64,000 nucleotides of DNA, from positions 99,501 to 163,500 of the forward strand of contig NW_024068019.1 of NCBI RefSeq assembly GCF_009389715.1, read 5' to 3'. Below are positions 1,653 through 62,756 of this stretch, piece after piece (the stretch's first letter is position 1; each line of letters begins with the position of its first letter). The notes under the pieces were generated by a model. The model did no database searches. It saw only the letters and a list, made by a program, of their open reading frames with translations, and was not told where the DNA came from. A program made the translations under genes and the position numbers. The DNA is from Phoenix dactylifera (lineage: Eukaryota > Streptophyta > Magnoliopsida > Arecales > Arecaceae).

Positions 1653-4600
1653 CTAGGTAAAGAAAACCAGAACAAAAAGAACAATAAAAAGAACTATCAA
1701 GAACAGTATCATCATAATTTGTCCCTTTGCACCAGCCTTCTTCATAACCATGGCCACTTTTTTCTGCACAAGGATGCCATTATCTCCATCATTATACAAA
1801 CTTCCACATAAGAAGATGAAGGAAAGATAATCGGTACTGCAAGAACACTAAAAGATAGTAAAAGGTTTCTGATTTTAATTGTCCAGTAAAACTACAAGGA
1901 ATAAGGATATCCAGGTTTAGTATTAAAAATAATTTTAATCACCATAACATCAAAGAAAAGCGAATAAAAGAGATATACAAGATTTAACACAGCCAAATTG
2001 AAGTAATTGACGGGATGACAAACAGAATACTGGTAGATATTAGTACAAATGCATAAATTAAGAAGAACAAGAAAAGAAGAGATGGTTGTCGTCACTTCCT
2101 GGTTCCAAAAAAAAGAGTCAAAAAGATTAATAATGAAGGCAGCACCTCCAACTGCATGCAGTTCATACCACTAAATGCTTTTCTCTAGCAGAATCTAAGA
2201 CACAAAAAAAAAAGAATATACAAGTATCTAATAGATAAACAAAATTGATGCGCCAACCTGAACAAAGCCAAGCCGATTTGAAGTAGTTTCCATGTCCACA
2301 CTCATATCATCCAAAATCCTCTCCTGCATTACCAAACAAGCATCAAACTTTTCAATAAAAATATAATAAAGCAATACAAAGGAGACAGGCACAGATGCAA
2401 TTTGCCTCTGATATCATGAGTTCAATAATAACCAGGGGTATTATATTTGGTAATCTATCTATTCTTTATTGTTTCTTTGAAGAAGCTTAGAAGAACTGAA
2501 TAAAAATCAAAAAGAAACAAGATACAGATAATTAGAAAAATAACATAATCTTTTTTTTTGAAGGGAAATTCAGTCCAGATAATCAAATTTCGTCCAGAAA
2601 CCACATAAGGTTAAAGAAGTTGAGAAATTTATACCGGGAGGGTAGAAAGAAACAGAGATAAGAATTAGAGGAAGAATAAGGGGAACAAGACAGGAAGAAT
2701 GTTTGGAAAGGAGAAGGTGCAGGATTAAGGTAATATGGAAATAGTCCCCAAAGTTTTAACTCAATACTGAAAAAAATTATAGTTACACCCGGATTAAATA
2801 AATATAGGAGATAGGTTGTTACACATACAATTCAGTTTATCTACTAAATAAAATCCTTAAACAATATTTACTATAAGTTTTTCTCTTTAGCCTCTTTAAT
2901 CAATTTTCTTCAAATCTGTCCCATCACAATGAAGGAGAAGCCCAAGAGAAGGGAAATAACAGTAATGTTTTATTTAAATAAAATCTTCATCAATGATATC
3001 CCCAAATGAAAAGCAGCAACCTCATGCACCAACAAATACTTGTATTTATTGACCTAAAAGATACAAAGGGTACCAACCAATAAAACTTGGGTAAATCTGT
3101 CCTAGCCGCCCCGCCAGATTTTTTCATGAGTGGGCTAAGGATTTCAGGCCCAACCATGATTCAAATCAAGCCATGGTTTGCTAAGTTTTGCTTAGCCATG
3201 CTTGACCAACTCGTTGGATGTCTTATATATCAAACATACATCTAATTATATAATAAAATATAAAATCCATAACATTATAAATCAATTTGGATGGAACACA
3301 TTATAAATACAACAGTTATATCATTAGTTTTTAGAAACCAAAACATATTTAAACTTAAAATCTAAAACCTAAAATAAAAGTAAAAACAAGTGAGTAAAAG
3401 ATGATGTTAGCACTAAACTTTTTGAGCCCTTTTCATTCTCCTTCTCTAGCCAATAACCCACCTTTTCCTCCATTCTCCCTGGCACTGACACTAGACCATC
3501 ATCAACTCTGCCAATATATTGACTAGAATACAAGTTACATCTCTCCCTTGAGCACATCAAGGCCAGATTGATGTTGGTGGCCGTTAGTACCCAGCTTTCT
3601 CTCTCCCTCCACCTTCAACCACCCTCACCACCACCATCTCCATCCATGCCCAACCCCCCTCACAACTACCATCTTCATCTATCCCATGCCCCTTCTCCCC
3701 ACCACCACCATTGCCTGACTTTACCACCACCACCAGTTTAACATTTCCTCTTTCCTCTTTTTCCTTCCTCCCTCCTCCATTCCCCCTCCCTCCCTCTCCC
3801 CTCTTTTCATGACTAAAAATAGTGGTGCATGTTGGATTAACCACAGTCCTGACTTACAAGCTAAAGCATGGATCATTATTGGATCAAGCTAAGTTAGCAG
3901 TCTAGCACAGGCCCAATATTTTGAAGCTGAGTCAGGCTTGAGCCAACTCATTGTTCCTTGCTATGGAACCATGACCCAACCTAAACCCATCTTAGTCCAA
4001 TCTATACTCATGTATACAATTGTATAAGCCTTAACGTCTAGAACCGCTTGCACATCAAGCAATATTTGGAGACAATCCCTAAGCTTAGCCTACTCAAATT
4101 TGCAAAACAAAAAGCCCAATCCAAGACCTATTAATAGTGACAGCAAACACCATCGACTTACCTATTACCTATAGCAAGAATGTTAAACATGATAAATAAA
4201 TAACAGGCGGCTAACTTTTCAATCAGTAATAAAGTATTAGTTCGACAATATCCATTTAAATACTTATGCAGCCATATGATTCATGTGACTCTTTAGAATA
4301 CAGATAATCATGTCATATGATTTTGAATTCTTAGGTGTGCAATATTTAATATGTAAAAGTAGTGAAATTATAGGTCACAATCTAATAAACAAGTTATATA
4401 ATTGTCTGCTTCTTTTGAGGGTATTGTATAATCTAAAATGTATTGCCTAATAAGGGTTGAATGGAGACCTGCACCTGCTTATTTGGAGGCCTAGAGCTAG
4501 ACCACAGGCTACAAGTCAAGCTATAGGCCCTTGCAACTCGGCCTTAAAAGCCGCATCTCAATTTGTAACCAAAATGGCTATGAATAAAGCTGTAGACTCA

Positions 4601-7600
4601 AGGCGGGCTCTCCCCAAGCCCTAACCATTGGTATCTTCTCTCCTGTAACCCCCCAGTTCTCCTCTCCCTGTAACCCCCTGGTTCCCCCATCCACCTACTA
4701 AGCCATGCCCTCCTCCCTCTCAATCTACCCACTCACCCCTTCCTCACCTCCCTCGCCCCACCGACCTCTGGTCCTCCACCCATCTCCCTCACCTTCCCCC
4801 CTACCCTGCCTCTGCCTCATCTCCCTCAGCCCATCAGACCTCCACCCATCTCCATCACAAATCTCAGCTTCCCTCTCCCTGACCAGCCTTTGCCCGGTCT
4901 CCCTTCCCCTGTTGGTGCCCACACCATCTCCCTCACCCATCTCACCTTCCCTACGCCACCTAACATCCACCCATTGCCCTCCAAACAGAGGGGATTGAGT
5001 CATATGAAACTCAAATAAATGCACTTATCCAACTGAGCTGTAGTTTATTAAGTTGCAGGAAAACACTAGCCACAAGGCTTGAAAGAATCCCTAAATAGGC
5101 ATATTTGATACAGCACCCAATCATTTTGGGTAAGTGACCGATTTCGATAGCTCCATCCATTGAAAAAGGTTTTTCTCCCTTAACAGCATGATTGGGAACC
5201 TTTTTCCTCCCTCTCTTTTCTTATCTTCTTTTCTTTCATCATCTTCAACACTATCTAGTACTATCATTACATACTCCTATCTTGCTATTTATATACATAT
5301 TCAAGCCTATTCTCCCTCCTCCTCCTAGGGCAAATAATAAAGTCTATCCATGAAAACTTAACCTATCGTTGCTTAAGTCAGCATGCTTTTTATTGTTTAT
5401 GAATATTATCGTATGTTAAAAAAGGCTTGTTTTTGAAAGAATATCGTTCCAAATACGAACCTAGTAACTCATTCTATTGGTCATCTTTGTCTTCCATGGT
5501 TACTTTCCCAGTTGTCTTTCTTCAATTCATAATTTTTACGTATACTTACCTTGGGATTCTAGTGTTATGAACATTTCCTAGGTTGGCATGATGATTTATC
5601 AAAAAAATAGACCACGAATGATCTCACGTTTAGCCACTAAATAGGCAAGGCCCTCAATTATAGACTTGTAAAGGATGTTCCACAATTATTTACAGTTAGG
5701 TGGCCCTGTTCATAAAATGGAGCAACTTTCCTGACTTCCAATAATATCCAATCATATCTTCAGATCCGAAAAGAAACTTCTGACTTCAGAATACAATGTT
5801 CTTTACTGCATTAATAAGATTGGATGGTAAGAAGTATCATAGAAGTCTATCTGACATAGGTAAATTGGCTCAGCATGTTAGCTATGGACCTTTCCTCACA
5901 AGATGGATGAAGATTTACGAAGTGACAGATTTGTTCTGAAAGTAAGAATTCACAAGATGGAACTAGTCATTGGCTCAAAATGGATTCCAAAAACCTGCTA
6001 GTGGATGGATTAATGGTAGTTCCAAATCTGCTTTAGGTGTGGATGAAAAAAGGAACTCGAATGCTAGCAATTGAGATATGTATAAAACCAAATATGCCAA
6101 TTTTATCTTATTTTATTTAGAAAATGGGAAAAAATCTCATGTTTGTTAGATAGTTTATAAGGAATATATCATTCCATTGCACCAAATGATCAGGACAGTT
6201 TTGAATAAGTTTTGCAGTCAACATGAATTTACTCCTCATCTCAAATTACTATAGTAACAGCTAATCAATCATAACCTCTAAGCAAAGAAGGTTAATAAGG
6301 CTACATTATCATAATCAGTCGGTTAAGCAGTCTTTGGTTACCAGTCCTCTTCTTTGCTCCTTTCTGATAGCGGGAAGGTTGAGTCCATACCCATAAATTG
6401 TAACAAAATCTAGCACGTTTTGTGAAACATCACCTGTCCAATAAGCTCTTCATTTATAGTAAGCCCTACATCTCCAATTCTCTGAACACTTACACTTAGA
6501 TCATCTAGCTCCTCATCTTGTTGCCTGCAGCATCACTTGGCTGGCATCAGAAATCTAGTACAAATACATTTACAGATTAAAAGCACCTAATTTGAAGAAC
6601 CAAGTGCCTTAATCATTCAAAAAAAATACTCTTTATTCCTCTCCATAATTTCACCATGATCATGGGTCCATGGTTTGCAGCTAATTTCCATGTCACAAAG
6701 GAAACAAAATCTACAAGCAAATGAACTACAAGATTTTAAAAACATTTTCAATTCTTTGTGGGGAATATCTGTATGTCTACCCCTCCACACCGTTTTAGCA
6801 TTGAACTAGCCTAAGATGGGAAGAACCATATCTCATCTGGTTGAAGGAACCTTGATAGCTTATTTGTTACTTTCATATTTCCCAGAAGTATCTTGATGGT
6901 CGTTCATCAATTTGAAGAGTTTATTGGCTATTATTATTCAAATCTATATACCAAAGGTTACTACTTTATCGGCATCCAACCCACATATACTGTGGTGGTA
7001 GAGGAACACTAAGGACAACTACTAGCCCCAGAAAAGGAACCCTTCTCACAGATTAATGGGAGAATTTGGATGGAGGGGTGACACAATGTACTTTTGATGT
7101 GAAGCAACATACAAGTGGATAAATCGAGCTTTTTTGTCATGGAAAAATGAATAGAAGAGTTGGAAAACAATAATACTTAATAAGGAGCATCTGTCGATCT
7201 GATTCTGCAGATATAAAATCATCATTGTCTTCAGCAGCATAGTTGTTTGATCTTCCTGCTTGAGAAAAACCAACATTTGGAAGCCTCATAAGCTCCCTAT
7301 GCATCCCACCGGAACCCAAGTTGATTGAGTTGCTTTTCTTCCTTCCATCTTCTAGAGCTTTTCTCACAGTACCCACCTAATAATTACTACATTCGTCAAA
7401 ATATCCAAGAAACCTCTAAACAATAAATCACAAAAGATTAATCAGCATTCCAAAATCACAGTCCAAAATGAATTCTCCTCGCTCAACTTACGAGCTTTAT
7501 ATTAGATTTATGCAAATGCAAAGAAATAACCAAGGTAAAAGATATAAGAAACAAAAAGGCAGTATTGCAGAAATATATTTGAAGGTTTATTAAACTAGAC

Positions 7601-10600
7601 CTCAGTATGAAAAATATAGCACCTGAATACGAGCAATATTTGTCCATCTCCTCCTTTTGTCAAGCTCAACTTCATCGAGGCCATACCAAGCTGGATCACT
7701 TGCAGCAACTGCAATTGCCTTATCCAGTTCATCTACCTTTCTATAGGAAAAGTACTAGTTTAGTAACTGAAGCAAGCAGTAAGATGGAACTGATATGAAG
7801 GTTTTGTCTTAACTAATAAGGGATTAATGCAGATAGATGTACGCTTAAATTGGAATAAATGATGTCTCCTGCAATTTGTGGCTGCACTTGCTTCTTTATT
7901 TCTTCATAATCAATGTTTCTATGGTAAATTGATGAATACTCTAAATTTAAATGATTTAGTAAAGACCATCTGAAACCTTTGACAAGCATTACGGAATAAC
8001 TTTGGTAGTGTTGGTCATGATACCTGCCATTTAATGCTTTCGCAGTTGGCAAGTAGCTGTTTAGTTAGATGAAGATGCTCTCCACTGTTATAAGGGGTCT
8101 CTTCCCATTGGCGGAAACTATCGTGCAGCTTATCAATCTGCCAAAAAAAGTGAACATTAACTTAGGTCTTCACATCTCATATCATGGACAACAATGTAGT
8201 AAGCTGGGCTGCTAAATATCCTTACGGGAAGAAATTCAATATGTCATTGATAGCTAAAATAAAGCATTTTCTTGCACACCACCCATGAGAAGTTTAAGAT
8301 TAGAAAATGAAGTCACAAATAAAAATAAATGTCTAAAAAGTAAACAAGTTTAATTACACAAAAGACATTTATGGTAAAATAAGGTTGTCCAGCAAAGGAA
8401 CAAATTTAAGTATCGAGAAATAAAAGATAATTATAAACAACTATCCTTGTTACATCTGTTTGGTTTCAGTTTTGCACATCCTACTCCACGGCTGAGAAGA
8501 GGAAAATGTAGCTGATCTTTAAACTAAAACAAATTTCTCCTTTAAAACCTCCAAAGATGCATCTCCACCTAATCACTCTACTTAAATATCATTTCACATA
8601 TCCTTATTTCTATCTCCAGCCACTTGCATTAATGCAACGAAGATAGTAAAAAAATTTGAAATCCTACCCTTATTAATTCCAGCTGCATCTTTTCAAAATA
8701 ATTTTAGACTGTATTTTCTACTGTTTCACCACAAGTTGAATCTAACAGTATCAGCAATCAATGCTGCACGAAGGGCCATACTAAAAAATTTACCAATTAA
8801 AGCATTCATAAAATGTTTAAAAAATTAAATAGAGTGGGGATGTATAGCTGATCTCTGATGCAGATTTTTTTGCTGATAACCCCTTTCCACGCTATCAGTT
8901 GAATGAACTGTCAGCAGCTCCATTTGGCTCAGCAGAGTCTGTTCAATTAGTAAAAGGCAGGCTAACACAAGGGATCTAAACTCTAAATGGTTTTTAAGCC
9001 CAAGATAAAGCCAAACAGTGGCTTGCTTCAACTTGGCTAAATTAAGCACGATATATCATATTGATTACAGACATATAAGAATACATACACATACATGAAT
9101 GAGGCTAGGTACATATGTACACACCAATTATTGCAGTGCCGGTACCGTGATCTATGCTAGTCAAGTATGGGGTTCATATGGTGCCATATTGAAACACGGT
9201 ACGCGATGCTGGATCAGTCAAGTATAAGCCGACCACCGACTTTACCTCCTTCACAAAAGCCTCCCAAATATCCTATTTGGCAGTCTTTCCTATGGTAGAG
9301 AAAGGGGAGGTTCCCCAAAGAATGCAATGCCAAGGGTGTGATAAGAACCTGAAAGCCATCAAAGGCAGCATCTACTAAGTTGGTGCAGACAGGGTCAGCC
9401 CAACCCTTAGCCTAAGGCCCCGGCCCAAAAAAGGCCCACGGCCTCAAAGACAAAACAGAAAGAAAAAAAGGCCCCTTTAGTGAGTTCGCCTTAGGCCGGC
9501 CCACTGCAAGGAAGACCTCAAAGACAAAACGGAAAGAAAAAAGGCCCCTCTTAGTGAGTTCGCCTTAGGCCTCCAAATGCATTGAGCCGCTCCTGGGTGC
9601 AAATGTAGGCGACGATGTTGGAGGCATTAGGCAAGCTCGATGGAGTTGGTTGAAGAAGCAACAGAGATGGAAGGAGAGGGGAAGGGGGAGAGAGATCGGC
9701 AAGGGTGGGATGCTTGCAAGAGAGAGGCAAGGAGAAATTAGGATAGCGAGGTAAGGAAAGATTGAGTTGTTAGGGTTGGGATTGGGCCATCAGGAAGAGG
9801 TTAAATAGGAAAAGAACTACTTTAGCCCGATTCAACCTTGGAACCACCCGAAACCACTCAAAACCGAAGCAGCTCATGCCACAACCCGGTTCATCACATT
9901 TCGTCCTTGGGATCAAATCGTGATCTTGATCCATCCCAGTTCTACACCGGTTATGTTCAATACGCACCGAACTGCTCATTTGAGCAAACCTTGGACAGCA
10001 CAAATAACTATTACAAATCAACAATTATTTTTTTTTATATTAGATTTTTTCATATAACAAGGATATCTAATTTTAAATTGAGACAATGTCAATCTTATGT
10101 GCTCAAGAACTTGTTGAATAGAATTTATCTTATCTATTAAACCAAATGTCTATGTTTCATAGTTTAAGATGCATTTCATGCACTAGCTTGAGATCTAATA
10201 GCTAGGGTTACTCCTCCATGAGAAAATGTAGCAGACCATCTTGGCACCTAAGTGTCTGTATTTTTTGGTAGAACAGCTGAGATGTTGCTATGAAGAGGGA
10301 TGTGGGATAAAGGAGCATGAAGAGTGATGGAGCCCTTAACAAGCTGCTTGTGAATAGAGGAGGTTCAGAATATTAATAAAATCAAGATGGATGCAGAGAT
10401 TCGGTCTTCAAACTATGATTGAGCAAAGCTTGCAATGCCCAAGACCACCAGTCAAATTTAAAGCCAAACATGCAGTGCAAGTGTGGCTTATAGGAAATGT
10501 CCAGCCTATCGCTTCTTGAGCCCATAGCCAAAGCTGTTATCACAGGCATTATAAACATTTCAACATAAATCATTCCTGTTAGGATTTGCAAAAGGATCAA

Positions 10601-11233
10601 GAGGTAAACAAGGAAACAGAAAACTTCTCAGTGTTAAGGACAGTCAAGTAGAATACAATTACATGGTGGAAGTGGATAATGATAATATATAGAACAACCC
10701 ATATCCAAATAGTTGTCTTTAGCTCCTACATCACCATTAGTTCTTGTCTAGGTTCAAGTAATATGAAACTGAAAGTGGCTTTAGACTTCTCATCCACATC
10801 ATTACTTTCTTCCTTTCTACCGACCTTTCAGCCTATATATAAGTGACCTCCTCACTAGGGCCACCTTTGGCGTATGCTTTACATGGTTAACAAGCTTAGA
10901 CATTTTCTTCAACTTTATTCTGTTTTGATGTCACTCCCATGCTTCCATTAACATATATCTAAGTCCATTCTTCACAGTTTAAACAGAATTCCACCTCGAT
11001 AACCTTGCTTTACATGCATTTTATGCTTTCATGCCTTTCACTCACTGTTTTTCCTTTTTGGCTTTTATGATATTTCTCCTTACTCCCCTTGGTTAACTCT
11101 ATTCATACATGCAACTAATGCTAACAAACCAATCTTACTTCAAACACACTAAAGTAGATAGAAAAACATGACTTACAGATTCCTGAATTTCATCTTTAAC
11201 AATATAAAATGGATCTTGAGCAGAAGTCATCAT
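1653..11233 (-). CDS. SYP61: SYP61-type Qc-SNARE (syntaxin of plants 61)
   Basis: Trans-Golgi network/early endosome Qc-SNARE for vesicle fusion and plasma-membrane/vacuole trafficking (family knowledge). Seven coding exons were deduced from GT-AG sites with matching phases: 11177-11233, 8024-8137, 7623-7736, 7177-7376, 6434-6524, 2258-2323, 1653-1763. They give 250 aa; Arabidopsis SYP61 is about 245. It starts (M)MTSAQDPFYIVKDEIQES. A syntaxin-6-type N domain covers about residues 7-100, with the conserved DPAWYGLDE and KRRRWT. The SNARE helix is about 156-222, starting at SDRQMLLIKQQDEELDDLS, with Q192 (in IGQERI) the likely zero-layer glutamine. A C-terminal membrane anchor covers about 231-249 and ends VLVFFT. 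Two ATGs are adjacent (11233 and 11230), and the second matches the Arabidopsis start. Introns 1 (3.0 kb) and 5 (4.1 kb) carry repeat DNA. Confidence 0.95.
9130..9993. repeat. Repeat cluster in SYP61 intron 1 with a hAT-like terminus
   Basis: GGTACCGTG-type words near 9138-9205 resemble the CCGGTACCG-rich ends of the hAT elements at 39474-42358 and 62565-62748. The right edge ends GCAAACCTTG at 9993, the same terminus as the 184-bp MITE (ends CAAACCTTG at 62748). I could not confirm a partner terminus or target duplication. A 74-bp tandem duplication lies inside (about 9442-9571). Confidence 0.35.
9442..9571. repeat. Two-copy tandem repeat, period 74 bp
   Basis: A block beginning CCTCAAAGACAAAAC and ending TTCGCCTTAGGCC occurs at about 9442-9511 and again from about 9516. 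The copies are nearly identical apart from a few substitutions and one indel. It lies in intron 1 of SYP61. Confidence 0.7.
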
Positions 11234-11849
11234 GCTTTCACTGATGTTCTCCTACATGGATCAAGAAATATCAGTACCAGTTGAAATACAGAAACTAACT
11301 AAGACATGAGAAAACACATTTCAGTAGTTAGCAAATGAAACATGGCATCCCACCCACAAAAATAACAGGCCCTACAAACAGGGATGATAGACAACTCTCA
11401 GGAAGCAGATAACCCAAAGAGGGAAGAAAGAAAGAAAAGGTTCATGAAACATGCACTATATGAGAAAGTATAAACCAACACATGACAACTGCACCAGAAT
11501 GCTTCCAACTAATATTTGGGGTCACCAAAGCACCCAAAAGTCATACATAGTCATTTGCATAAATCATAACTCTAGTAACGCTTACTTACTATATGCGTCA
11601 ATGTTTTTTAGTAATTAAGTCAGGGTTCATTAAGAGAAGCAAAGAATATAATACTGGGTTCAGTTATGCATGTGAACAGATTATGACATGCTTCTGAAAT
11701 CCAATAAAAGCCTTCAATACCAACAGAAACAGCAAATATCTCTAGTCTCTTTGGTGATATCATGCATAATGCTTGACGGAGATGTATATGGTATCGATTA
11801 TTTTATTCTCTTGCATCAAGTTGGAGGTTCAGGTGCAGTTACAATTTAA

Positions 11850-11851
<2 letters not shown>

Positions 11852-11900
<49 letters not shown>
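11852..11900. repeat. (TC)n microsatellite
   Basis: About 24 uninterrupted CT/TC dinucleotides, upstream of the SYP61 start codon and inside the inferred 5'UTR intron. Confidence 0.95.
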
Positions 11901-11902
<2 letters not shown>

Positions 11903-12420: not shown

Positions 12421-15400
12421 CACTCCCATCGTTATGACCACCTGGAGAAGTACGAAAAATGTGACGTCTTCCCGACAAACTCTTGCGTTGCCTTTTCGGC
12501 TTCATTCCTTCGGCCAGGATGCCACCGCTGGAGCTGGCTGTCCTGTGGGCTTCGGTCAACCGACTTGCGTTTCCAACCTTCAATCTAATGAAATAACTTT
12601 TTGTTCCAAACAGGATGTAAGATTTGGATTCTCATGCAGTGAAGTCTTAAACTGTATTGGCCTCCTCATTTACCTCACCATTTTGTAGGTCGCCAAAAAC
12701 AGTAAAAGTGTGCTTCATGCGTAATGTATAGACATGAAATTTAGCTAAAGATATTCAAACACAAGGATCCCCATGAAAAACATCGTTAGCTGTTGTGACA
12801 GAGATAGCTGCTTTTATGAGTCAATTTTTCTTTGGAATAAAATAATTTTGTTTGCCACGGAGATGGTAGCTAAGTGGAACTGGATCATTGCTTCCACCCG
12901 TTTGGTCCGAATTCGAAACGCACGGGCGTCGATTAAATTGTGGAAACCGGATGCTTTCTGCTCGGATACGTGAGGTGGGAGGGCTTATTGGTCCGCTAAT
13001 AGCATTGGTGGTGCCAGATATGACGTACTCACATAGAAGATTCGTACCGATGCCCAGAGGAATAACCGAGCCGGACCTACGGGTGGGAAGGGTATGAGTA
13101 AAAACGGCCGACGTGCCCAATACACGGTCAGGTCTGTCTGCATCGAACATTTTTCTGGCAGGATGGGAGCCCAATGGGGGCTACTATGCGGGAGTGAGCT
13201 TGTCCCTTCCTTTTCTCTTCCCTTTTTGCTTAAGCAAAAAATAAAAATAAAATTAAAATTAAAAATTAAAAATAAAACAATTTTGTTTTAATGACCATTA
13301 TTAGTTGAAAATATGGTAAACAATGACGGAACAATGTTGGTTTTTTTTATTCTATTCACTGTTCAGATAATTAAAAGAACATTGAAAATGTTAAAAATAA
13401 TGACTCATTATATAATAAACATTATGACCATTTAATAGTCACCTCAACAGTCATCTACTTAAACATTACTACACCAAATACAAGTAGCGCCCTTCGTTGC
13501 TTCATTTGGAGCACTCCCTGGCGACATTCTCGTCGTGAAAACAACGGTTTCCAAGCAAAATGTTGTATGGAACTTGCATGTTTGCACTCAAAATGAGCCA
13601 AAAGCAAGCTGAGGTCATGTATAATCAATACTTTGCTGAATAATTATGACCATCTTATTTCTCTATATTACAATGGAAACCCTTACATCAGGAACTCATT
13701 CCACCTTAATCCATCCATCACTTGCGTGAAAGAATCAACATTAATTAGACACCATTTCGTCTATAACTATGATCTTTTAACAGGATAGGATCACTGTCAT
13801 CCATACTTTTTTACATCCATTAAACCTCGTATGCATAGAGGAAACATTAGAGCAATGGCATTGGTGGATAGCCAGAGCATATGCTTCATATGCTTGCCTG
13901 CTGAATTCCTTAAATTTTGGGATCCAATGGAGAACTGAAGCACGTAATCCAGACTCTCCTGAAAAGCTTGATCCTAGGCTCCTAGCCAGGAAGGCTACAT
14001 AACACAGAGGCAAGTATAGCAGGCACATCGTATACCGAATCGCATGACATGAAGAGCTATAATTGACGCTGGAGAAAGCATGGTCCTAGCCAGTATTAGC
14101 AATACCAAGCTTCCAATATTAATTACCAAAGCATTCATGCCTGCTATCCGCATCTCAGCAAACCATAAAAACCTGCTGCTTCTTTGGGGGCAGAGAAAGC
14201 CAGTAAGCATCACATTGTAGCATCAAATATTTTGCAATAGTCTTCCAGTGGAAGGGCTTGGAGAACAGTTCATAATGAGACAAATGTCAAGTATGTGTTG
14301 CCCACCCAATAAGTGGCCTGTTGAGTTCCAGTGGCTGTTGGAACCTCAATGATCCAGTTAATTTGCAAAAGTCAAATCCTTAAAAAAATTGTGCATCAAA
14401 AACTTCAGAGAGGAATTAGTACTGCCCCAGAAGTTAACTAAGAAACCAGCTGCATAAAACAACAGCTAAGAAACCAGCTACATAAAACAACAGCATTCAA
14501 GGTAAAGTAAAAAGTTGTTCCATAACCGATTTCCTGTTGTCTGCCACACTCAAAAGCACAGGACTTTCAATTGCACCTCCCCTTCCTCACATAGGCCCTG
14601 TCAAGTACTTCTAGTGGTCCATTGCATTCCATGACCTTGAGAGGATATTGGAATGGTGTCAACACAAGCAAGAGATAATTTCAAACAGAAATAAATCTAT
14701 TCTATATTAAGTCAGCTCCCTCTAGAGCAGGACTCTACCATGCTAAGATTGAGAAGCTTTACTTTAGACGGGGATGCATTGCCAGATCAGCTCCATCCAT
14801 GACATGTATGAATTATAAGGATTAAGAACTAATCACTGAAAAAAAAAGCATGATGCCACTACTACTTTTTTAACTAGCATGTTTGATAATTAAGTTATTT
14901 TTTACTTAATAAGAGCCCTTCATTGTAGTCTGTTATAGGTTCTTCATTGTAGTCTGTTATAGGTTGAGAAACTTAGACAAGGAGATATTATATCCAAGTT
15001 TAAATACTCACATCCTATATTTTAGCCTAGCCATGAGGTGTAGGAGAAATAAAGAGAAATGAAACACAACAAAATGCTAAATAGGAATTCCCAAAATAGG
15101 AACCTTTCGAAAGAATAGAACTAAAAATTTTAAAGAGGGCTACTGAAACCAACGTTACCAAATGTTAAAAAAAAGAAAAAGGAAAAGAAATGTAATGATT
15201 ACCAGAAGTATCTCACCTTGACACTTGAAAAAAGAATGGGCACCTCACCCGGTTGATTCAAGGGCAATAAGGCAGAAAAGCATTTCACCGTTCAGTTAAT
15301 GTTTTGTCGCAACAGAAAGTGGAAACTTGCCAATGGTCCAGAGTATGAGGAAACAATTTTGTGATTCTTCTTTTAACTCATTCGGGCATGGTCTTAGCCG

Positions 15401-28985: not shown

Positions 28986-29528
28986 TCTGAATACTTGTAG
29001 CGATCAAAGTGATCCACATCGAGCTCAGTGATCCTCCTAGATCAAATGGATATGTTCAGGTATTGAAATGAGACATGCTAAAGTTGAAGCCCATGGTAGA
29101 CCTATATCCATCGTGCTCGGTTGCAGGAAGTAAAAAATAAAAAAAAAATGAGCTATAAAACATCTATAAATTAAAAAAATAAAATTAAAAACGTGATATG
29201 AACTTCATCGATGCCAAAGTGGGAGAGACAATGTTGATTCTTAATAAGAGAAAGTTATAGTATCATGCAAATTGGAATAGCTTTGATGATGGAGCTGCAG
29301 TAAGTACGTACACTCGAGGGTATCACAACCATCAATACTTTCAATCAGATGTATTGCAAGTGCCAACCATCCATACCTTCAATTAGTGACTATAAATTAA
29401 TCTCTCTAACAAATTCTAGAGAAAGGAACCCGGCAAGTATTCCCGACTTTATAGCCTAACATTAGCAACTGTCAATTATATTTGCCCTTCAATCCATTGA
29501 GCCCATTCGCGCGCGCGGAGGGGAGGGA

Positions 29529-31967: not shown

Positions 31968-32265
31968 AAACTGGTTTAATACCAAGTTTGTTCTGCATGA
32001 TGTCGATCCTGAGAAAAAGGAATATGCATTATCTACTCGCAGTGAGAAGTTAGCTGTTGGATATGGGCTTACGAAATTACCTGCTGGGGCCACAGTTAGA
32101 GTTCTTAAGAGCTTGAGAATTTGTGGAGATTGCCATGCTGCATTCATGTTCATGTTAAAGGCAGCTGATAGTGAGATAATTGTCAGAGATGTTAAGCTGT
32201 TTCACCATTTTAAGAGTGGAGAGCATTCTTTCCTTGTGGGAATTATTGGTGAAAACCAGTTTAAT
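31968..32265 (+). pseudogene. Tandem duplicate of the PPR gene's DYW-encoding 3' end
   Basis: The segment at 31981-32265 repeats 31701-31980 (spacing 280 bp), beginning at ACCAAGTTTGTTCTGCATGA in both copies. The duplicated part encodes the DYW domain from TKFVLHDVD onward and includes the original stop region. Copy 2 keeps RSEKLAVGYG and CGDCH. A 5-bp insertion near 32229 shifts the frame at the last residues, so it lacks the CSCGNYW ending and runs on to a stop near 32392. It sits right behind the real stop codon, has no start of its own, and is probably only 3'UTR sequence. Confidence 0.88.
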
Positions 32266-35655: not shown

Positions 35656-35707
<52 letters not shown>

Positions 35708-35720
35708 GTATGTATATATG
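35656..35720. repeat. Compound microsatellite (AC)n(AT)n(GTAT)n
   Basis: Consecutive runs of AC, AT and GTAT units between 35656 and about 35720, about 700 bp upstream of the VSR start codon. Confidence 0.95.
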
Positions 35721-42400: not shown

Positions 42401-45400
42401 GAGAAGGAGTTTAGGTCTGGAAACAAAATGCCTTTTGTTGAAGTTAGATGCCTGCTTAACAAATTTCTATCACTTAGGATTGCATTAGTGTAAAGTCATG
42501 AAAGGCAAGGTTGGCTTCTGTGGCGGAATTGACCTTCACAGATTCAATGATTCATGCATAAAAAATGAGTTTCGAGGAAGAAAACCAAGGTGGACGAAGA
42601 ACAATTGTTGTGACATCCTCGTTCCATGAGGTTGTTGTTGGCCCATCTGCAGGTTTCTCGAACAAAAGGGTTCTCATTTCCTCCTCATTTTCTTTAGAGT
42701 GGTCGCTAAAATGTTAATCTCACAGTGCGTAATGAGGAAAGTATTAAAGAAAGGCTCTCAATGAGAGCCTTATGATTGCAGATATATGCAAATATCTTAG
42801 CTGTAAATGCAAATGGTGCCCTCATCTTCATGAGGTTTATCTTTCATAACTTTGGATATTGGGTAGGAATGGATAAATGCCATATATTATGCAAATGGTA
42901 GATGAGATATGATATCGGGAAGAAAGGCTTGCATGATATTAGTATATGGGAAAATACTAATGGATTGGCCTTAAGTGGTTTTATAAAATATGCTGTGAGA
43001 AAAAAGTGATCTTTTAGGTGGAATTAATGACCACAAGATGTGGGGCGTGGCAGCGTAAGTTTGGCTTGACTAATGATGTTTATTGTTCTCCTTAATGTCA
43101 TTTTCCCCTAAGCTTTTATCTGCTATGCCGGCTGTTGGACTGTGGTGGTGCGACCGTTGGTCAATGTGGATTATAGTGTAGTGTGTAGATATTCTCAAGA
43201 GATGCCTTTATCAGGTAAATGATGTGGGAAAACAATTTCCATGTTTTCTTTGATCAAGGCTGGTGAGGGAAGAACAATTCTTGTATTTGGAGACAGGATA
43301 TTGAAACCAAGTGTACTGGTTTTAGGTACCGTAGGGTTGCTTGGTTTTATGAGCTTTTTTTTTTTGACCATCAAGGAAGGTTCCCTAGTTGTTGACTGGC
43401 CTTTTAAGTTTCATGGAAAGGTCGAACTTTGTGACTGCAAGTTGTAAACATCTGCTTTACATGGATCATTCTTAACAAGGACGCATGTTTCATAATTAAC
43501 CTCATGGTTGATGACAAAGGCTTGGTGGATCATGTAATGATGTCTACCATCCATATTTGTAGAGAATTGCATGTCTATTATCTCTTTGTTCTACATATTT
43601 CGGCACAACTAATCTGCTTGTAAAGTTAAACTCCTTTTGTTAGCTTATTGGTTTAGAGTTCCTAATGTTCTTTTGCCTTTGCTGTTATTTTTCATCATAC
43701 CATGAAGGAGGTGAAACCCTTAGTTTGATATCTAGTAATACCTATTTAATTCTTTAAATTAAAAAGGTTGGGTCAGTCCATAACATGTGTGAGCACATAA
43801 CTGCACGTTGCAAATTATTCAGGCCCCAATTTTTTGTTAAAGGGAATCTTTTAGGGAATTTATAAAATGCATCGTACTCACAATTCAGTTTAAGAAAGAT
43901 GAAGTTAAGTTGACAAACTTGGAAAATCATTCATAAAATAGTATGTGTGTGTATGTAATCATGAGTATATTTGAAAAAGAATTCATCAGTTTGTTTGAAA
44001 ATTTATATACTTTTTTTTATAAAAGAACTCATTTTTTTATTTAAATTTCTATAATTTTCTAATGCAATGCTAATGTATAAGCATATTTAAAAGAAATATT
44101 TTTTAAAATAAACCTTGGATTCTAGATTCAGTATAAATTTCCAATTGATTCAGTCATTGTGAAAAAAAAGAGGTTTATCTAAAAAGGGAATAAGACAAAT
44201 TAGCTTTTTCTTGCATAAGCAATTTAGCACTGACTGTACTAAACTATGCATTCTATATTATTAGATATTCACACCGATACTTTGCAATATAATTAAGCTA
44301 TGGCTCTTATATTGTTGATATTTGGTAACCCCAAATATTAGGCATCATCCTGTGCTGCATATCACCTTTACATATTTTAAGTCAGATTTTTTTTTTTTTT
44401 TGGAATGTGTTTCGTACGTATTATACTTGTGTTGACTACTGTGTATTTTGACAGAATGCCTGTTTGCTAAGAAGGTTTGGAATGCACAGAATGCTGGTGC
44501 CTCTGCAGTGCTTGTTGTTGATGACAAGGATGAACCACTGATTACCATGGATCTGCCCCGAGAGGACGATGAAGCTGCAAAGTATATTCAAAACATAATG
44601 ATTCCCTCCGCACTCATTGATAAAAATTTTGGCAAAAAGTTAAAGAAGGTCGTTCTTAGTGGTGAAATGGTCAATGTGAACCTTGACTGGAGAGAAGCTG
44701 TTCCACACCCAGATGATCGTGTGGAGTATGAGTTATGGACTAATAGCAATGATGAGTGTGGGCCTAAATGCAACATGCTAATGGATTTTCTAAAGGAATT
44801 TAAGGGTGCAGCTCAACTGCTTGAGAAAGGTGGGTACAGTCAGTTTACACCCCATTATATAACATGGTACTGTCCTCAAGCATTCATTGTTAGCAAACAA
44901 TGCAAATCCCAATGCATCAATCACGGGAGGTATTGTGCACCTGACCCTGAGCAGGATTTCAGCACTGGTTATGAAGGAAAAGATGTGGTTGTTGAGAATC
45001 TGAGGCAACTCTGTGTGTTTAAAGTTGCAAATGAGAGTAAAAGGTCCTGGATCTGGTGGGATTATGTGACCGATTTTCACATCAGGTGCCCTATGAAAAA
45101 GAAGAAATATAACAAAGAGTGCGCTGACACCGTTATCAAGTCATTAGGTAAGGTTTATTTTCAAAGTTGACAAATATACTTTAATTGGTTGCTGAGTTAA
45201 CATGATTGGGAGCTGCTATTGTTCTAGTTTTATTATTATGCATAATAAATCTTTATTCATACTTCACGTGTGAAGATATATAAAAGATGGTTCAAATGTT
45301 AATGTACTAGGTTTGTACAAATGATGATAATACACTGTATCTAAGTTGGCCAGCAATTTTCATTGCTATATGTAAAAGCATCAGTTTATCATTTAGTAGG

Positions 45401-48400
45401 ACAGTTATAATATTCTTACATTTAAGCAGGGCTAGATGTCAAGAAGATAGAAAGGTGCATGGGAGATACAGATGCAGATTCTGACAATCCAATTTTGAAA
45501 ATGGAGCAAGATGCCCAGGTCGGTATCTCCTTATATGTTTGGTAGATTGATCTGTCAAATCTGTTATGATGAATTTCATACTCTGAGATGATGCCTTTAT
45601 ACATTCCTTCTGAGTTTGTATTTCTAACTTAGTTCCACACCTAAATGCTAGATGATGAAAATTCTTTGTACAGGTTGGAAAGGGTTCAAGGGGAGATGTT
45701 ACCATATTGCCTACTCTTATTGTTAATAATCGACAATATCGAGGTTAGTCTTGGATATGTTATATTTCTAATTTTAAGGCCATTACTGGTGCTAACATAT
45801 AAAATTGCAGGAAAATTAGAGAAAAAAGCTGTCTTGAAAGCTATATGTGCTGGCTTTGAGGAAACTACTGAGCCAGCTGCTTGTTTAAGTGATGGTAGGA
45901 TTCAGTGGCTGCGAAGTTATTCTGAAAACATTTTTCCATTCTCATAATAGAATTTTATACTTGAAGCATAGGTTTCTGATTCATGCATGCTTTCAATACA
46001 GATATTGAAACAAATGAATGCCTGGACAATAATGGGGGGTGCTGGCAAGATAAAGCCTCCAACATCACTGCCTGCAAGGTTTGAAGTGAAAAAGTATATA
46101 ATTCACATGCTTCTGGTTGTTTCTCTGTCCTAATGGGTGGATTGTCTTTCAGGACACATTTCGTGGCAGAATTTGCGAGTGTCCGGTGGTTGATGGTGTG
46201 CATTTCAAGGGTGATGGTTATAGCCATTGCAAAGGTGATCTTTTTTTTTGTCCCCATCTCAATTGAAATCTGGCAGTTTAAATCTTAGTAGTTTGCTTTA
46301 GAGCAATACTATATCATTTGGACATCACCATCATCATCACCACCATCATCATCATTTTATTTTCACAAATGAATGCTTATCAAAGCAAAGCCAAGTGTAT
46401 ATGTAAAAAATTCAAGTTATACTTGTATTAAATCCTATGGATTTAACTGATGGGCAATTTTTGATTTGACAAAGCTATTAAATTATTGTTATTGTTGCAT
46501 CTTTTGATCACTTCAGTTCTTTGTCTGTACCTGTGAATGTATCCCTCAGCTGCTGTGCGTGCTAAGTAACGCTGATTATCTCACAAATAAGGTTGTTTTC
46601 ATGTTGCAAGAGCTGATTGGTGGTACTTTGTTGAATTCATGTATTTCTTTTATTGCTTGTAAACTGGTCAGATAAGCCATACATGATTTGCCTATGAACT
46701 CATAAAAAGTAAAATTCCTGTTTGACATTGCTTTTGTTTTATGTTTTAGTCTTCAAAAATGCAAGAAGAAAATCAAAACTACACTTATCTCATGAACAAA
46801 GAGTTACTGCTTTCAACAAAGAGTGAAAATAAAAGCAAGGAGTAACAAAGAGTCAAACAAAGAACCTATATTACACATAATACTCTAAAATGTTCCGTGA
46901 TAACTTTTCTTGGCTTCTTTCATTTTTCTTTTTTAAACTTCTTTCAAATTTTCTCTTGAATTTTTTGACCTAAGCTCTGGAACTTGGAGCACTTCTGAAA
47001 TTGTCGAAATGGCTTAAACTGAAACTGCACAAATCTGGCCGAAACCAACTCCAAAACTAACTTTCCAAACCTTGACTAGATGAGTTAGTGGATATATTTT
47101 AACTATGTTAAGATAAGGTGTTGGCATTTTTTGCTTCATTTTCTCATAAGTTTAGTTTAAGGGATAGGATTAATTTACTTGAAATAATGGTTAATACTTG
47201 ACTTTTTAGGTTTTAAGTCATTCTGGCCTATAGTAGAGGTAAGGATATTCCCAAGATTTAGAATCTTGGTGAAATAAAAATTATGGTTTTGGATTTCTCT
47301 TTGTCCATGTCTTTTGTTCTCCGTCCTCACAGCATCACTTGAGGATCACGTCAAAAACAAGGATACCTTTGACCCGGGAAACGGATTCTTTCCCATGCAA
47401 AATTTCTCCAGCAAATCCAATAATATTTCAGATTTAACATGACAAATTGGATCCAGACCTAATTTCTGATTTATTCACTCCAGATTTTTCTGCCTCATAA
47501 TGGCTATTATGACCACTACATAACATTGTAATATTGGTTGTGGCGTGTATCTTACAGTCATTTATTCTTTGTTGTTGTATATATTAGAACACAACTGTTG
47601 TACCCAGAAACTGTTTGAATGGCAATTAAAATATCATGATGACACTAGTGATAGAGGCTAGAAACCTTGAAGTTGGATGATTAAGAGGAAACCGCCTACA
47701 GTATACAGCCGTATCATAGAGAATAACAGCTATCCAGGTTTTCTTTTTTTTGATGCATGCTTTCTCCATAAAAACATTCTACACTATGACACCTTTCAAT
47801 TAACTCTTCATGTTCTCTGCAGCAATTGGTCCTGGAAGGTGCAAGATAAGTAATGGAGGTTGTTGGCAAGTAACTCGTGATGGCAAGACCTTTTCTGCCT
47901 GTCAGGTTGGTTCAGGTAGCTCTAGGTTGCAAAATACTGTTAATCAAATACATGGTTTAGGGTGTTGACTGCTCAATCTTCGTGATGTGCTTTTTTGTTT
48001 TGAAGTGATTTTAGCAAATTCTTGTCTTTGGTGTGTACAGGATACTGGAGACAGCAAGTGCACGTGCCCCCCTGGATTCAAAGGTGATGGTATCAAAACT
48101 TGCGAAGGTAAGATGCTCAGTTAACTATTCTTTCTTCTTCCAGCAGGAAAGTGACTTCTAGCCGTTTTTTCTTTCAATCGGTCTCTTGGCATCCGTCTGA
48201 GGGTTTTTTTGTGGGGGTACCCCCCCCTTTATTCATTACAATAATGTTGTATCTGATAATACATATATTGGATCTTGTTAAAATTGATGCTCAAATCATG
48301 TAAATTTATTTGCTTTACACCTCAAGAAATCATCTCAGCATTTCATATTGCAAAAAGAAAAAAAAAAAAATCTTCCTATACATGTCAGATGATCAAACTC

Positions 48401-49542
48401 TGGCAAATTTGTCATTCTAGGTAATCAATTTCCTTTTTCATCCACAGATATTGATGAATGCAAGGAGAAGACAGCATGCCAGTGCCCTGAATGCAGCTGC
48501 AAAAATACTTGGGGAAGTTACGAGTGCACATGTAGTGGAGATCTTCTGTACATCAGAGAACATGACACTTGCATAAGTGAGATTTGTAATTTATCATGAG
48601 TAATAGTCACATCTTCGTAAAACTCTGTTGCTTGATATTGTTTTGATGTTTTATTTGCAGGTAAGAGTGCAGGTGAAGCCAAGGCAACACAGGCTGCTGT
48701 GTGGGTGATCTTAGGAGTCTTGGCTTTTGCTGCTTTTGGAGCATATATTTTGTACAAATATAGGTTGAGGGTAAGTTGATAATTTCTGGCCGACTATATT
48801 TAAATTCATTAGTTTTGTGGTCCCTGTGATGAGGATTTTGTTCACAGTCTCTTTGGCTTCCAGTTTCTGGGCCTTAAAATTAAATGCAGTTCCCTATATC
48901 AAATGCTTCCTTCTTTATACTTTATGGGAACTATTTCATCTCGTAAACCTCAATTTGGTAATTACTTGCTTGCATTAGCTTAAACCAAAAAGCTGGTAAG
49001 AAAAGTTTTCCTACCTGCCAACTAGCTTGGAGTAAATACAAGAGCCATGTTTGTGCAAAGTTGCTTTAGGATTTTGTGTGAAACCTTGGAAGTTCTGCCA
49101 ATATCACATTTTTGATGGTAGATAAAATCAAAAATATCATTGGCTTCTGAAGTTAGACACTGTAGAATCAAGTAACTGCAACTTTGCATGTCTATGTTTT
49201 ATTGTTTTGACGAATTATTAGCATGATCTTGATTCCAATTACTGAAACATTTTCCTGCCTCCATTTTCTTGATACCTGCTGAAAAAAAATTGACTGGTCC
49301 CTGAAGATTGTTATATCTAGCATCCCTCCTCCCCTCCCCTGCCATGCGGCATTTAGTTTTTGCTAGTCTGAAAATTGTTGTATTTAGGCCATCTATTTTG
49401 ATAATTCTTGAATCTGCATACCTTTTTCTTTTTGTTGCAGTCATACATGGACTCAGAGATCAGAGCTATTATGGCACAGTACATGCCACTGGACAGTCAA
49501 GGAGAGGTCCCAAATCATGCCCATGAACAAAATCATGCCTGA
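36430..49542 (+). CDS. VSR: Vacuolar sorting receptor (VSR3/VSR4-type, BP-80 family)
   Basis: Type I receptor that sorts vacuolar proteins between Golgi/TGN and prevacuolar compartment (family knowledge). Twelve exons with consistent phases: 36430-36745, 44455-45147, 45430-45518, 45674-45743, 45811-45894, 46002-46078, 46153-46234, 47823-47905, 48041-48107, 48448-48576, 48661-48770, 49441-49542; 633 aa, the usual family size. Signal peptide about 1-29, then [19 protein letters not shown] domain about 60-170. Central lumenal domain with [14 protein letters not shown] and RGDVTILPT (RGD 372-374). EGF modules follow, including a calcium-binding type (DIDECKEK…[10 protein letters not shown]). Membrane span about 575-594. 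Cytosolic tail [19 protein letters not shown] with sorting motif YMPL (614-617). The tail ([11 protein letters not shown]) resembles Arabidopsis VSR3/VSR4 more than VSR1. Intron 1 is 7.7 kb and holds a hAT element. Confidence 0.95.
41870..42110. repeat. Subterminal GTGGCACTTT/AGTGCCAC array inside the hAT element
   Basis: Repeats of GTGGCACTTTCAAGAGTGCC and related inverted words (AAGTGCCAC) recur about ten times next to the right end of the element. hAT transposases commonly bind repeated subterminal motifs, so this may be a binding array (inferred). Confidence 0.75.
42142..42320. repeat. 91-bp tandem duplication near the hAT right terminus
   Basis: A CCGGTACCG-rich unit containing GTACCGATTGGGT and TTTCTACCTCTGTACCGAAC occurs from about 42142 and again from about 42233, with a handful of substitutions between copies. 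Confidence 0.85.
46322..46355. repeat. (ATC)n-type trinucleotide repeat in a VSR intron
   Basis: Imperfect CATCAC/CATCAT repeats in intron 7 of the VSR gene; not coding. Confidence 0.85.
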
Positions 49543-50756
49543 AATGGAGGTTGGTTTTCACGAAGGATTCTCTGCTTGATCACTCTACCCCAACGAGAAA
49601 GACATACAGGGCTTGGTGGACAAATAAAAGATGGATGGGGGGAATGCCCACAGAAGGAACATTTAACATTAAAATAGATTTTTAAGGGCCGAGGAAAATT
49701 GTTTGTGTGCCAAGATGGAGTGAGAATTGTAAAGATCTTACTTGTGGTTTGATGACATAGCCCAAGGCATGAACAGTTAACAGAGATGGTGCTCAGTATG
49801 ATGGCCTTTTTAGTTCACATGGACTACCATATTGACAATTTGTTTAATATTTTGTTAAACATTTGGCTGACTTTCTGCAAGTGCAGGGGAGTAATGAAGG
49901 ACTTCTCATTGGTTGCATGAGCTCAAATTACATCTAATAAGATAGATTATCAGTCTTTTTGGTACAATGCATTTATAGATTTGCGGTTTGACAGCATCTC
50001 CAAGGTATGAAAACTGTAGAGATGGCACTCAATATGTTGGTTTCTTATGTCATCCACGCTGCCCTATTCACACTCAAACTTTGTTTTGCATTGTGCTCTA
50101 ATATCTGTGCAGCTAGGAAAGTATTGGAGTCTCTCTCCTTGGATTCACAAGTTTAAATTGTAATGAATGAAGAAGATTTTCCTGCATGCCAGCTAGTCGT
50201 GTAGTTTTTTGTTTGTTGATCGGCTGCTTTACAAAGTTCTTGAGCGAATATATCCATCCACACCACTCACCAGAATATCCTGGAATTCGGCATCAAGTTC
50301 ATGGGACTTATATCTGGTTGGTAGTCGATCATAAGTTTTGTTCTATAGCTGACCCCTGTTCAATGGAAAAGGCTTGGATGATGATAAGGGTTGCTCTCTC
50401 TCTCTCTCTCTCTCACATCCAGTGCTTTTTTGTTATATACTAAATATGAGAATCTTATTTCATGAAATCTCTCTTCGCAGCTGCCAGCTCTCGCTTGTTA
50501 ATACCTCCATCATGCTGGCCATCCCATATCTGCTTCCCTCTTGTTCTCCATATTTGGTTTCCGTATCCATTTATCAAACTCAAGCTGAATGTGGTTTGGC
50601 TGAACCTTTTTGCATGGATTAGGCTAAGCCCTATGGCTAAAATAAATAAGACCATAGAGTTGTAAGAACACAGGCTTGGCCTCAGTTGTATAACAAAATG
50701 GATTCAGATTGAATTGGGGATTTCTCGACCTATTTGAATTACTTCCATACTATAAC
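49543..50756. other. VSR 3'UTR and convergent intergenic spacer
   Basis: Starts with the VSR 3'UTR (stop at 49540-49542). A (CT)n run lies at about 50394-50414. No exon is recognised, and the overlapping open frames at 50374-50665 on both strands have no family resemblance. Confidence 0.5.
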
Positions 50757-51180
50757 AACGTAACATCTCATCCAGAATTGCTAGCCAGAAGGTATTTTTT
50801 GGGTTTTTTAGTTCCGTATAAGTATCCAAGATTTTATAGGCATGTCCACACGGTTCTTCACATACTCTTTCCGTTCGAGCTCTAACGTTTTCGTCAAGCT
50901 AGTAGTTCAAATTTATTCAAATTTAATTACAAGCACCATGATCAGTCTGTGTTCAGCCTTTATAAACTCGTGTTGCATTGTACCCTAGTCCACATAGGCT
51001 ATGGATCGAGTTCGCTCTGATACTATTTGTAACAACTTAAACCTCGCCCAAAATGACTAGATGAAACGTATTTTTTTGTTCCTGTATAAGTATCCAAGAT
51101 CTTCTCAGTGAATAATTGATGTGGGACTAAATACACACCCACACGAGTCCTCGCACATTCAATCAAATGCTATCTATGAG
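50757..51180 (-). mobile_element. TRIM-like LTR-retroelement fossil
   Basis: Two related direct copies, about 50758-50900 and 51029-51180, share a TGTAACA-like start, a GACTAG-like word, GTATAAGTATCCAAGAT and a CCACACG…CACAT block, spaced about 270 bp. Between them, next to the right copy, the minus strand reads AGTATCAGAGC, similar to the initiator-methionine tRNA primer site. Short LTRs, a primer site and no coding room fit a terminal-repeat retrotransposon in miniature. It is degraded and the edges are approximate. A third partial LTR-like piece may lie at about 54977-55005. Confidence 0.5.
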
Positions 51181-51567
51181 TATTTAAGAGAGGGATAACC
51201 CCCATTGTATAGCCGATTTCTTACAGGCGGCTTTGTACTGGATAAAGAAATGACGATGAAACCCAAATCGGCCCAATCCCACTGACAAACCAAGTTACAA
51301 CTGAACGAAGAATCTAACAATCTCGTCATCTGCTTCACAGTGAACATACACAAGAAGAGTTGAGAAGAACATGAGATCTGATCAAGGTGATCATTAAGTT
51401 TCAGTCCTCGAATGGCAGAATAGCTTATTCAGATAAACCGTTTACCATGCAATGAATTTATGAAAAAACTAAGATATAAATAAAGACTTGTGAACATCAC
51501 AGATCCAGCATCATTCTGTTTGGGTGTTAGTGTTGGTGCAGTCTCCATGTCCGAGTCCATTTAGATC
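51181..51567. other. Spacer and 3'UTR of the RSL-like gene
   Basis: No exon recognised. The right part should be the 3'UTR of the leftward bHLH gene, whose stop codon is at 51568-51570. Confidence 0.5.
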
Positions 51568-53188
51568 TTACTGTTGAGATGGAGAAATCTTTAGGTCAAG
51601 TCCAATGTTAATCCCATTGTAAGCGATTGGAGCGTACATCCACAGCTCATCCGAGCTCAGAAGCTGCACAGAGAAATCGCCAACATAATTACATTCAGAT
51701 ATCTTATTATATCAACCTATATTGTCTTAGTAGTTTGGACCTTTTTTTTTGACTATTATATTGTGTTTTTCCAATAACACGACTCAGAGAATCCTCACCT
51801 TAATTTGGAGCTGTAGAAACTTTACATATTGAACTGTTTCTTCAAGCATTGTGCTAATGTCTACCTACAAGATTATGCCAATTTAGACTCATTAGATATC
51901 GAACATTTTCACTCTGAAAGTTTTTGGAGCAAAGCAGGATTGATGCAGTAACCAAAACTTACTTTGGTCCCATTGGGAACCAAGTTCTGCAGAATCCTTA
52001 ATCTCTCATTGATTCTCTCTCTCCTCCTCTGTGAAATTATTGAAATGGCAATAAGATCAGAACCCCGAAAAGGTGGCAGCAGCAACACTGCACTCTTAGG
52101 ATTCAAAATGAAGGCCTTTGGCCAATTCAGATCAAGTACTTACCCTTGCATAGAGGCTTTGGGGATCGGTTGTCGACCCCCGACTGGTTTTTCTTTTCCC
52201 ACCTGGACTCAGAGTTCCTCCTTTGGAGTTAGAGCTTGCGCCGCCTCCTCCATTCAGCTCCTGGGAGGCATTTGAATCCTCCTCTGAGCTGCAGCAGCTG
52301 GAGTTCTGCATATCTAAGTCAGCAGTACTATTCTCTTCCTCATTGCCACTACTAACAATCTTGGCCTTCTTAGACTGAGCCTTCTTCACCTTCTTAGGTA
52401 CCTAATACATGTTCAATCTCTTGATCATGATGTCTAGAACTTGCACCAATAGAAACTAGGCAATATGTTGGCACGTAGCTAAAGAGGAGTTGCATACTCA
52501 CCGGTGCCCAGGCCCGGGCCTTCTTCTTAAGACTTTCAATAGAGGTGCCACCTTTCTCATTCGTCATGGGCTGCTCAGCATCACCTGCATGAAACTTTTT
52601 CTTCATGGTTTGTGAGGTCTGATGGAGAGGAACAGCAGGCACTGATGATTGCTCTCTTGTGCTTCTGAATTCATCACTGCTCGTCTCCTCGGTCGCACAA
52701 ACTGGCTCACTGAATTGATGATATGAAACAGCTGGAAGGGATCGCCCAATAATTTTCTCTTCCTCGATGCTAAAATCCATCGAGGTGGAGCTATTGCTGA
52801 TCTGTGGAACAGCATTAGAATCACTGACGAAGCAGCAGCCTCCATTGTTATCAAGGGGAAGAGAGAAACTACTAGTACTAGTAGTACTACTACTTGTCCC
52901 TTGAGACAAATAGTATGGATTGTTATTAGTTTCGAAGTCTGAACAATTATATAGATCAGCACCATGGTCAGGCCAAAATATCGGTGGCATTGCGATGCTC
53001 ATGTCTTGATCAAGCTCATAAGGAGATTCCTGAACACCTAGCAGGTGGGCAATTATCTCAGACTCTTCAGCCGATATTGCTGCATCAAATGAGTTCCAAC
53101 TTGCTTCGAAGGCCACTACTTCAGGCTCCATTGTGGAGTTACAAACTTGGGTGGTGATAGAAAGGAAGGACTTTGGTTGTATGATCAC
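51568..53188 (-). CDS. RSL: RSL class II bHLH transcription factor (RSL2/bHLH85-like)
   Basis: ROOT HAIR DEFECTIVE SIX-LIKE factors drive root hair growth in angiosperms (family knowledge). Five exons: 52502-53131 (or 53188), 52144-52401, 51963-52028, 51799-51864, 51568-51663; all introns are phase 0 and the bHLH splits across them. The protein is 371 aa from MEPEVVAFEASWNSFD, or 390 from the upstream in-frame ATG at 53188. A Ser-rich acidic N-terminal half is followed by a Lys-rich KKVKKAQSKKAKIV stretch, then TTDPQSLYAR and the bHLH (RRRERINERLRILQNLVPNG, VDISTMLEETVQYVKFLQLQ), then LLSSDELWMYAPIAYNG, diagnostic of class II. The basic region has YAR-RRRER where Arabidopsis RSLs have YAR-KRRE(R/K). 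The gene is convergent with the VSR gene, 2 kb away. Confidence 0.94.
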
Positions 53189-62556: not shown

Positions 62557-62564
62557 ATTGGGAC

Positions 62565-62748: not shown

Positions 62749-62756
62749 ATTAAGAC

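Follow-up and report, generated by a model that had tools for sequence, protein, structure and literature searches.

A gene run from SYP61 to RSL in date palm as one of two palm copies of a neighbourhood probably shared with Arabidopsis

A stretch of 64,000 nucleotides from Phoenix dactylifera (bases 99501–163500 of contig NW_024068019.1, here C372; the whole stretch is hereafter the window) carries in one run genes for a SYP61-like Qc-SNARE, an ASCC2-like CUE-domain protein, a DYW-class PPR protein, a vacuolar sorting receptor (VSR) and an RSL-type bHLH protein. An earlier note on this DNA had named counterparts of these genes in two Arabidopsis regions and had read the window as a possible ancestral block predating a duplication. 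This locus thus raises the question of whether the palm and Arabidopsis arrangements are related by descent and, if so, whether the window stands before a duplication or is one of its products. Searches of the 773-Mb palm assembly (2391 contigs) lead us to the view that the palm whole-genome duplication left two copies, of which the window is the fuller, and that its synteny with Arabidopsis is probably real. We consider it highly probable that the block is an instance of ordinary angiosperm microsynteny that was doubled in palms and scattered over duplicated segments in Arabidopsis.

The five named genes are all present within positions 1653–53188, in the order that had been described and on the strands given in Table 1. 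The seven coding pieces of the SYP61-like gene carry it further to the right than a short gene would extend. For the ASCC2-like protein, the sole PDB match at an E-value of 0.1 is the ASCC2 entry 2di0, which aligns over the CUE part. The main exon of the VSR gene matches the Pfam families PA and VSR_TRX, and its PDB match is VSR1. The bHLH part of the RSL-type gene matches Pfam HLH and, lower, bHLH_LHW; a Pfam scan of its first exon gave no match. As Pfam cannot tell RSL proteins from other bHLH proteins, the gene is called RSL on the strength of an assumed motif and of its identity to assumed sequences of RSL3 (72.6%) and RSL4 (71.1%).

The evidence for a second palm copy begins with the PPR gene, whose closest relatives in the genome lie on contigs C6 (85% amino acid identity) and C1018 (86%), the next best match being at 45%. 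C1018 is 98.8% alike to C6 over 4.7 kb and is for that reason taken as the other allele. When 200 kb of C6 were compared with the window by blastn and tblastx, C6 was found to be collinear, in the same order and on the same strands, from the PPR gene through VSR and RSL (the RSL copy lies at about 13.1585–13.1601 Mb) to near the right end of the window. The exceptions are repeat-like: 39750–40098 is matched out of order, and a second piece (50753–51165) matches several places. The convergent orientation of VSR and RSL, to which the earlier note had drawn attention, is seen in the window and recurs on the same strands in the C6 copy. To the left of ASCC2, moreover, an anchor sequence is matched elsewhere in the genome only on C6 (13.0857–13.0864 Mb) and on C1018, in the same orientation as the rest of the block, and ASCC2 therefore sits inside the collinear stretch. 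On C1018, RSL, VSR, PPR and the anchor follow one another in the matching order, reversed as a whole.

The PPR copies themselves differ between the two alleles. In the C6 copy (C6:13122612–13124780) the open frame spans 732 residues, and the match extends only to query residue 733, whereas in the C1018 copy (C1018:41481–43943) the frame spans 827 residues. This is either an allelic difference or an assembly error.

With respect to the age of the palm pair, synonymous divergence (dS) between the window and C6 copies was estimated by the Nei–Gojobori method, giving 0.302 over 713 codons of the PPR gene and 0.385 over 229 codons of the main VSR exon; two parts of the RSL gene gave 0.428 and 0.36. 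According to published accounts, the palm whole-genome duplication has a synonymous substitution (Ks) peak of about 0.32 and an age of about 75 million years (PMC10787024) and is placed in the palm ancestor (PMC6535811). Since the dS values lie near this peak, the C372/C6 pair fits the palm whole-genome duplication. The suggestion of a pre-duplication block is consequently not borne out; by its collinearity with C6 and by dS, the window is one of two palm-duplication copies.

It is the fuller copy because two genes are missing from C6, ASCC2 from within the collinear stretch and SYP61 from beside it. The 355-residue last exon of ASCC2 has a single match in the genome, at its own place, and in the 200 kb of C6 only a weak match to the glycine–arginine-rich tail was obtained, on the unexpected strand. 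For SYP61, genome-wide matches fall at its own place, on C14 and on C10 only (58–87% per piece); there is none on C6, and none was found at an E-value of 0.01 in the 200 kb of C6.

The relation to Arabidopsis was approached through locus numbers. In published papers, RSL3 is At2g14760 and RSL4 is At1g27740 (PMC7082380; also PMC3257299, with bHLH names), VSR3 is At2g14740 and VSR4 is At2g14720 (PMC8812904), At1g27752, formerly At1g27750, is a 656-residue CUE protein (PMC9400066), and At1g25360 is OTP90, a PLS-DYW PPR protein (PMC7076377). The loci named in the earlier note for RSL3, RSL4, VSR3, VSR4, the CUE protein and the PPR protein At1g25360 agree with the published numbers. From one gene to the next along an Arabidopsis chromosome the locus number rises by ten, so that, by number, the CUE gene adjoins RSL4 and VSR3 lies two steps from RSL3. 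SYP61 we take to be At1g28490, the sole check being that both terms co-occur in the same papers. In a model that places an assumed 27,400 genes at random and scores proximity to any of four RSL genes, the chance is 0.0004 for CUE within one step, 0.0007 for VSR3/4 within two steps, 0.02 for SYP61 within 75 steps and 0.07 for the PPR gene within 238 steps; the thresholds were set after the numbers had been seen, and the chance values therefore flatter the case. The proposal of two Arabidopsis regions thus holds for CUE with RSL4 and for VSR3 and VSR4 with RSL3, which the published numbers place together far beyond chance, but PPR and SYP61 are loosely placed and weak when taken alone.

Further neighbours, absent from the earlier note, were also predicted from assumed Arabidopsis locus numbers, by which IFRD would adjoin the CUE gene. 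TAF4B, IFRD/SAT32 and APS kinase were named before any search was made, and two of the three (IFRD and TAF4) were then searched for. IFRD has three matches genome-wide, on C372, C6 and C391. The C372 match (52513–52821) is 47 kb left of the window and 60 kb left of the anchor, and the C6 match (13026986–13027300) is 58 kb left of the anchor. TAF4, which we take to be At5g43130, near RSL5, gave ten matching pieces at three loci, on C6, C15 and C16. The C6 locus (13.594 Mb) lies to the right of the RSL copy at a distance of 0.43 Mb. An RSL-type match lies 2.2 Mb from the C16 locus; the chance of such TAF4 proximity is 0.4 to 2.3%. The IFRD result is rated strong and the TAF4 result weak. The composite palm order TAF4, RSL, ASCC2, IFRD is the same as the Arabidopsis number order, in which two of the numbers are assumed. 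The remaining IFRD match (C391:263948–264256) equals the C372 match in score, and C391 may be an allelic contig of the left part of C372.

A relation to the Arabidopsis segments also requires that the window VSR be of the VSR3 kind. Of the seven VSR matches in the palm genome, three are those of the window, C6 and C1018, and the other four form two pairs. AtVSR1, taken from its PDB sequence, is closest to the pair at C12:4.7 Mb and C3:19.3 Mb (79%), ahead of C6 (72%) and the window (71%). For AtVSR3, in an assumed sequence, the best fits are C6 at 81% and the window at 79%, with the C12/C3 pair at 75%. Judged by these identities, the window VSR fits better on the VSR3 side. An assumed OTP90 sequence used as query likewise places C1018, the window and C6 first, at 54–55%, with the next match at 46% over part of the length, and by this comparison the window PPR gene is likely the counterpart of OTP90. 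We also considered whether C1 holds an older copy of the VSR–PPR linkage, with a VSR at 6.010 Mb and a DYW PPR gene at 6.030 Mb. The C1 PPR gene is the best match for this OTP90 sequence outside the block; searched back, it has many near-equal matches, among which the window and C1018 copies are not first, and the pairing was put down to chance.

Several points weigh against ordinary microsynteny as the explanation. The Arabidopsis comparison is one of locus numbers, sequence searches having been made within the palm genome and in no Arabidopsis, rice, banana or Amborella genome. Among the predicted neighbours, IFRD/SAT32 as At1g27760 and TAF4B as At1g27720 are assumptions of ours, and APS kinase, presumably At2g14750, would be expected between VSR3 and RSL3. 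Neither these three numbers nor At1g27730 was found in the available part of PMC3257299. Two of the three TAF4 loci are elsewhere, and even the third is at some distance from RSL. The VSR assignment depends on one exon and one assumed sequence, and the short bHLH region resolves poorly which Arabidopsis RSL gene corresponds to that of the window. Within palm, dS is erratic in five short VSR exons, with values between 0.07 and 0.53. If the C14/C10 pair of SYP61 matches belonged to an older copy of the block, PPR, RSL or VSR matches would be expected beside it, and there are none. None of the bHLH matches obtained in the genome lies within 0.5 Mb of the four other VSR loci (the nearest, at 54%, is 0.91 Mb away on C12), which suggests that older copies of the VSR–RSL pair, if any, have come apart.

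One alternative is that the palm pair is real and the Arabidopsis match a coincidence, favoured by a selective choice of locus numbers. All of these numbers, including those behind the IFRD and TAF4 tests, did begin as assumptions, and the PPR and SYP61 genes, at 238 and 75 steps from RSL4, would fall so near by chance in 7% and 2% of cases. Nonetheless, the numbers for CUE, RSL4, VSR3/4 and RSL3 are published, and chance would give such proximity with probabilities of only about 0.0004 and 0.0007. Both palm copies have an IFRD match, and the VSR of the window is closer to VSR3 than to VSR1. We regard such a coincidence as unlikely. Alternatively, ASCC2 and SYP61 might have reached the window copy only once the palm duplication had taken place, so that C6 never lost them. 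Their absence from C6, where the weak wrong-strand match to the ASCC2 tail is all that was obtained in the 200 kb, would also be explained in this way. Each gene has multiple exons, however, and so is no retrocopy; the last exon of ASCC2 is matched once in the genome, and the Arabidopsis counterpart, by its published number, also stands beside an RSL gene, all of which renders a later arrival very unlikely. That the contig is an assembly chimera of unrelated pieces is scarcely credible. Although C372 does not belong to the assembly's long sequences with low numbers, IFRD, the anchor, PPR, VSR, RSL and the right-hand stretch occur in the same order on C6, the anchor, PPR, VSR and RSL are present on C1018 as well, and SYP61 and ASCC2 are each bracketed by collinear matches.

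Our preferred explanation, ordinary microsynteny, would involve descent, duplication and gene loss. An ancestral neighbourhood would have held, in palm order, IFRD, SYP61, ASCC2, PPR, a VSR3/4-type receptor and RSL, and TAF4 may have lain further along. About 75 million years ago this neighbourhood would have been doubled in the whole-genome duplication of palms, after which the window copy would have kept all of the genes and the C6 copy would have lost ASCC2 and SYP61. In Arabidopsis, further duplication and loss would have left chromosome 1 with RSL4 and CUE/ASCC2 and, further off, SYP61 and OTP90, and chromosome 2 with VSR3, VSR4 and RSL3. We observed directly that there are two palm copies, that they are collinear and differ by the dS values given, and that C6 lacks two of the genes. 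That this absence reflects loss, that the Arabidopsis segments share common descent with the palm block, as published and some assumed locus numbers suggest, and that the block is older than the palm duplication, we infer. The linkage of VSR, RSL and their neighbours needs no function, because survival by descent explains it. A stronger version, in which the neighbourhood from IFRD through SYP61, ASCC2, PPR and VSR3/4 to RSL (and perhaps TAF4) was present in the monocot–eudicot ancestor and the VSR–RSL pair was in addition held by selection, for example through shared regulatory sequence, seems to us decidedly improbable.

Table 1. Features of the window, in window coordinates
Feature	Position	Strand	Remarks
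SYP61-like Qc-SNARE gene	1653–11233	-	seven coding pieces; Pfam STX6_10_61_N and SNARE
Anchor sequence, 741 bases	13560–14300		between SYP61 and ASCC2; whole-genome DNA search, 3 candidates scored
ASCC2-like CUE-domain gene	16707–27510	-	coding pieces located; Pfam CUE
DYW-class PPR gene	29529–31967	+	one exon; open frame 29466–31967 with E motif and DYW
Partial second copy of PPR 3′ end	31979–32252	+	274-column match, 91%, directly after PPR stop
Vacuolar sorting receptor (VSR) gene	36430–49542	+	long first intron; apparently nearer VSR3 than VSR1
RSL-type bHLH gene	51568–53131	-	convergent with VSR gene
Right-hand stretch	58578–63881		collinear with C6 in five pieces
Predicted gene in right-hand stretch	likely exons near 59786–59923, 60543–60734	-	read by eye

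Within the right-hand stretch, 120 bases (59751–59870) are 98% identical to C6, the rest being mostly 65–95% identical. Read by eye, this segment appears to be the last exon of the predicted minus-strand gene, and its six frames gave no Pfam match. A structured RNA was considered and rejected, as on both strands its folding is no better than that of shuffled sequences; a search of Rfam gave no match within it, and one sub-threshold match falls elsewhere. The long intron of the VSR gene holds a minus-strand frame of 315 residues (39790–40737) that had no match in a Pfam scan and is perhaps a mobile-element remnant. Beside the RSL gene is a match to U6 snRNA (53882–53985, 90.6 bits), and the C6 alignment ends just short of it. 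By eye, the 120 bases that precede the match show no plant U6 promoter boxes, no T-run follows it, and it is probably a pseudogene.

If the block is ancestral, position could be used to match RSL genes for root hairs between palms, grasses and Arabidopsis, which would be useful where the short bHLH region resolves RSL correspondence poorly. For rice, RSL locus numbers are published (PMC11427827), and our literature search found no paper with those of rice VSR and SYP61. Separate searches found no paper naming At2g14740 with At2g14760, although gene-family papers, supplements and synteny databases may still report the block, and none naming At1g27740 and At2g14760 together with synteny. The window is also a compact example for asking which of two duplicated segments retains its genes; the general view of plant genome evolution is unchanged.

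In terms of known systems, the C372/C6 pair is like other segments of the palm whole-genome duplication, as described in the papers cited above, in order, strand and dS, and it is not unusual in having one copy without two of the genes. In the Arabidopsis RSL4 (At1g27740, At1g27752) and RSL3 (At2g14720–At2g14760) segments the same families adjoin, by published locus numbers; by the same numbers, each of these segments keeps only part of the set. Small gene runs kept across flowering plants have been surveyed (PMC8190143), and the palm block is likewise a small conserved run, known here from our own comparison. It seems to be an ordinary case of gene order conservation, and a well-preserved one.

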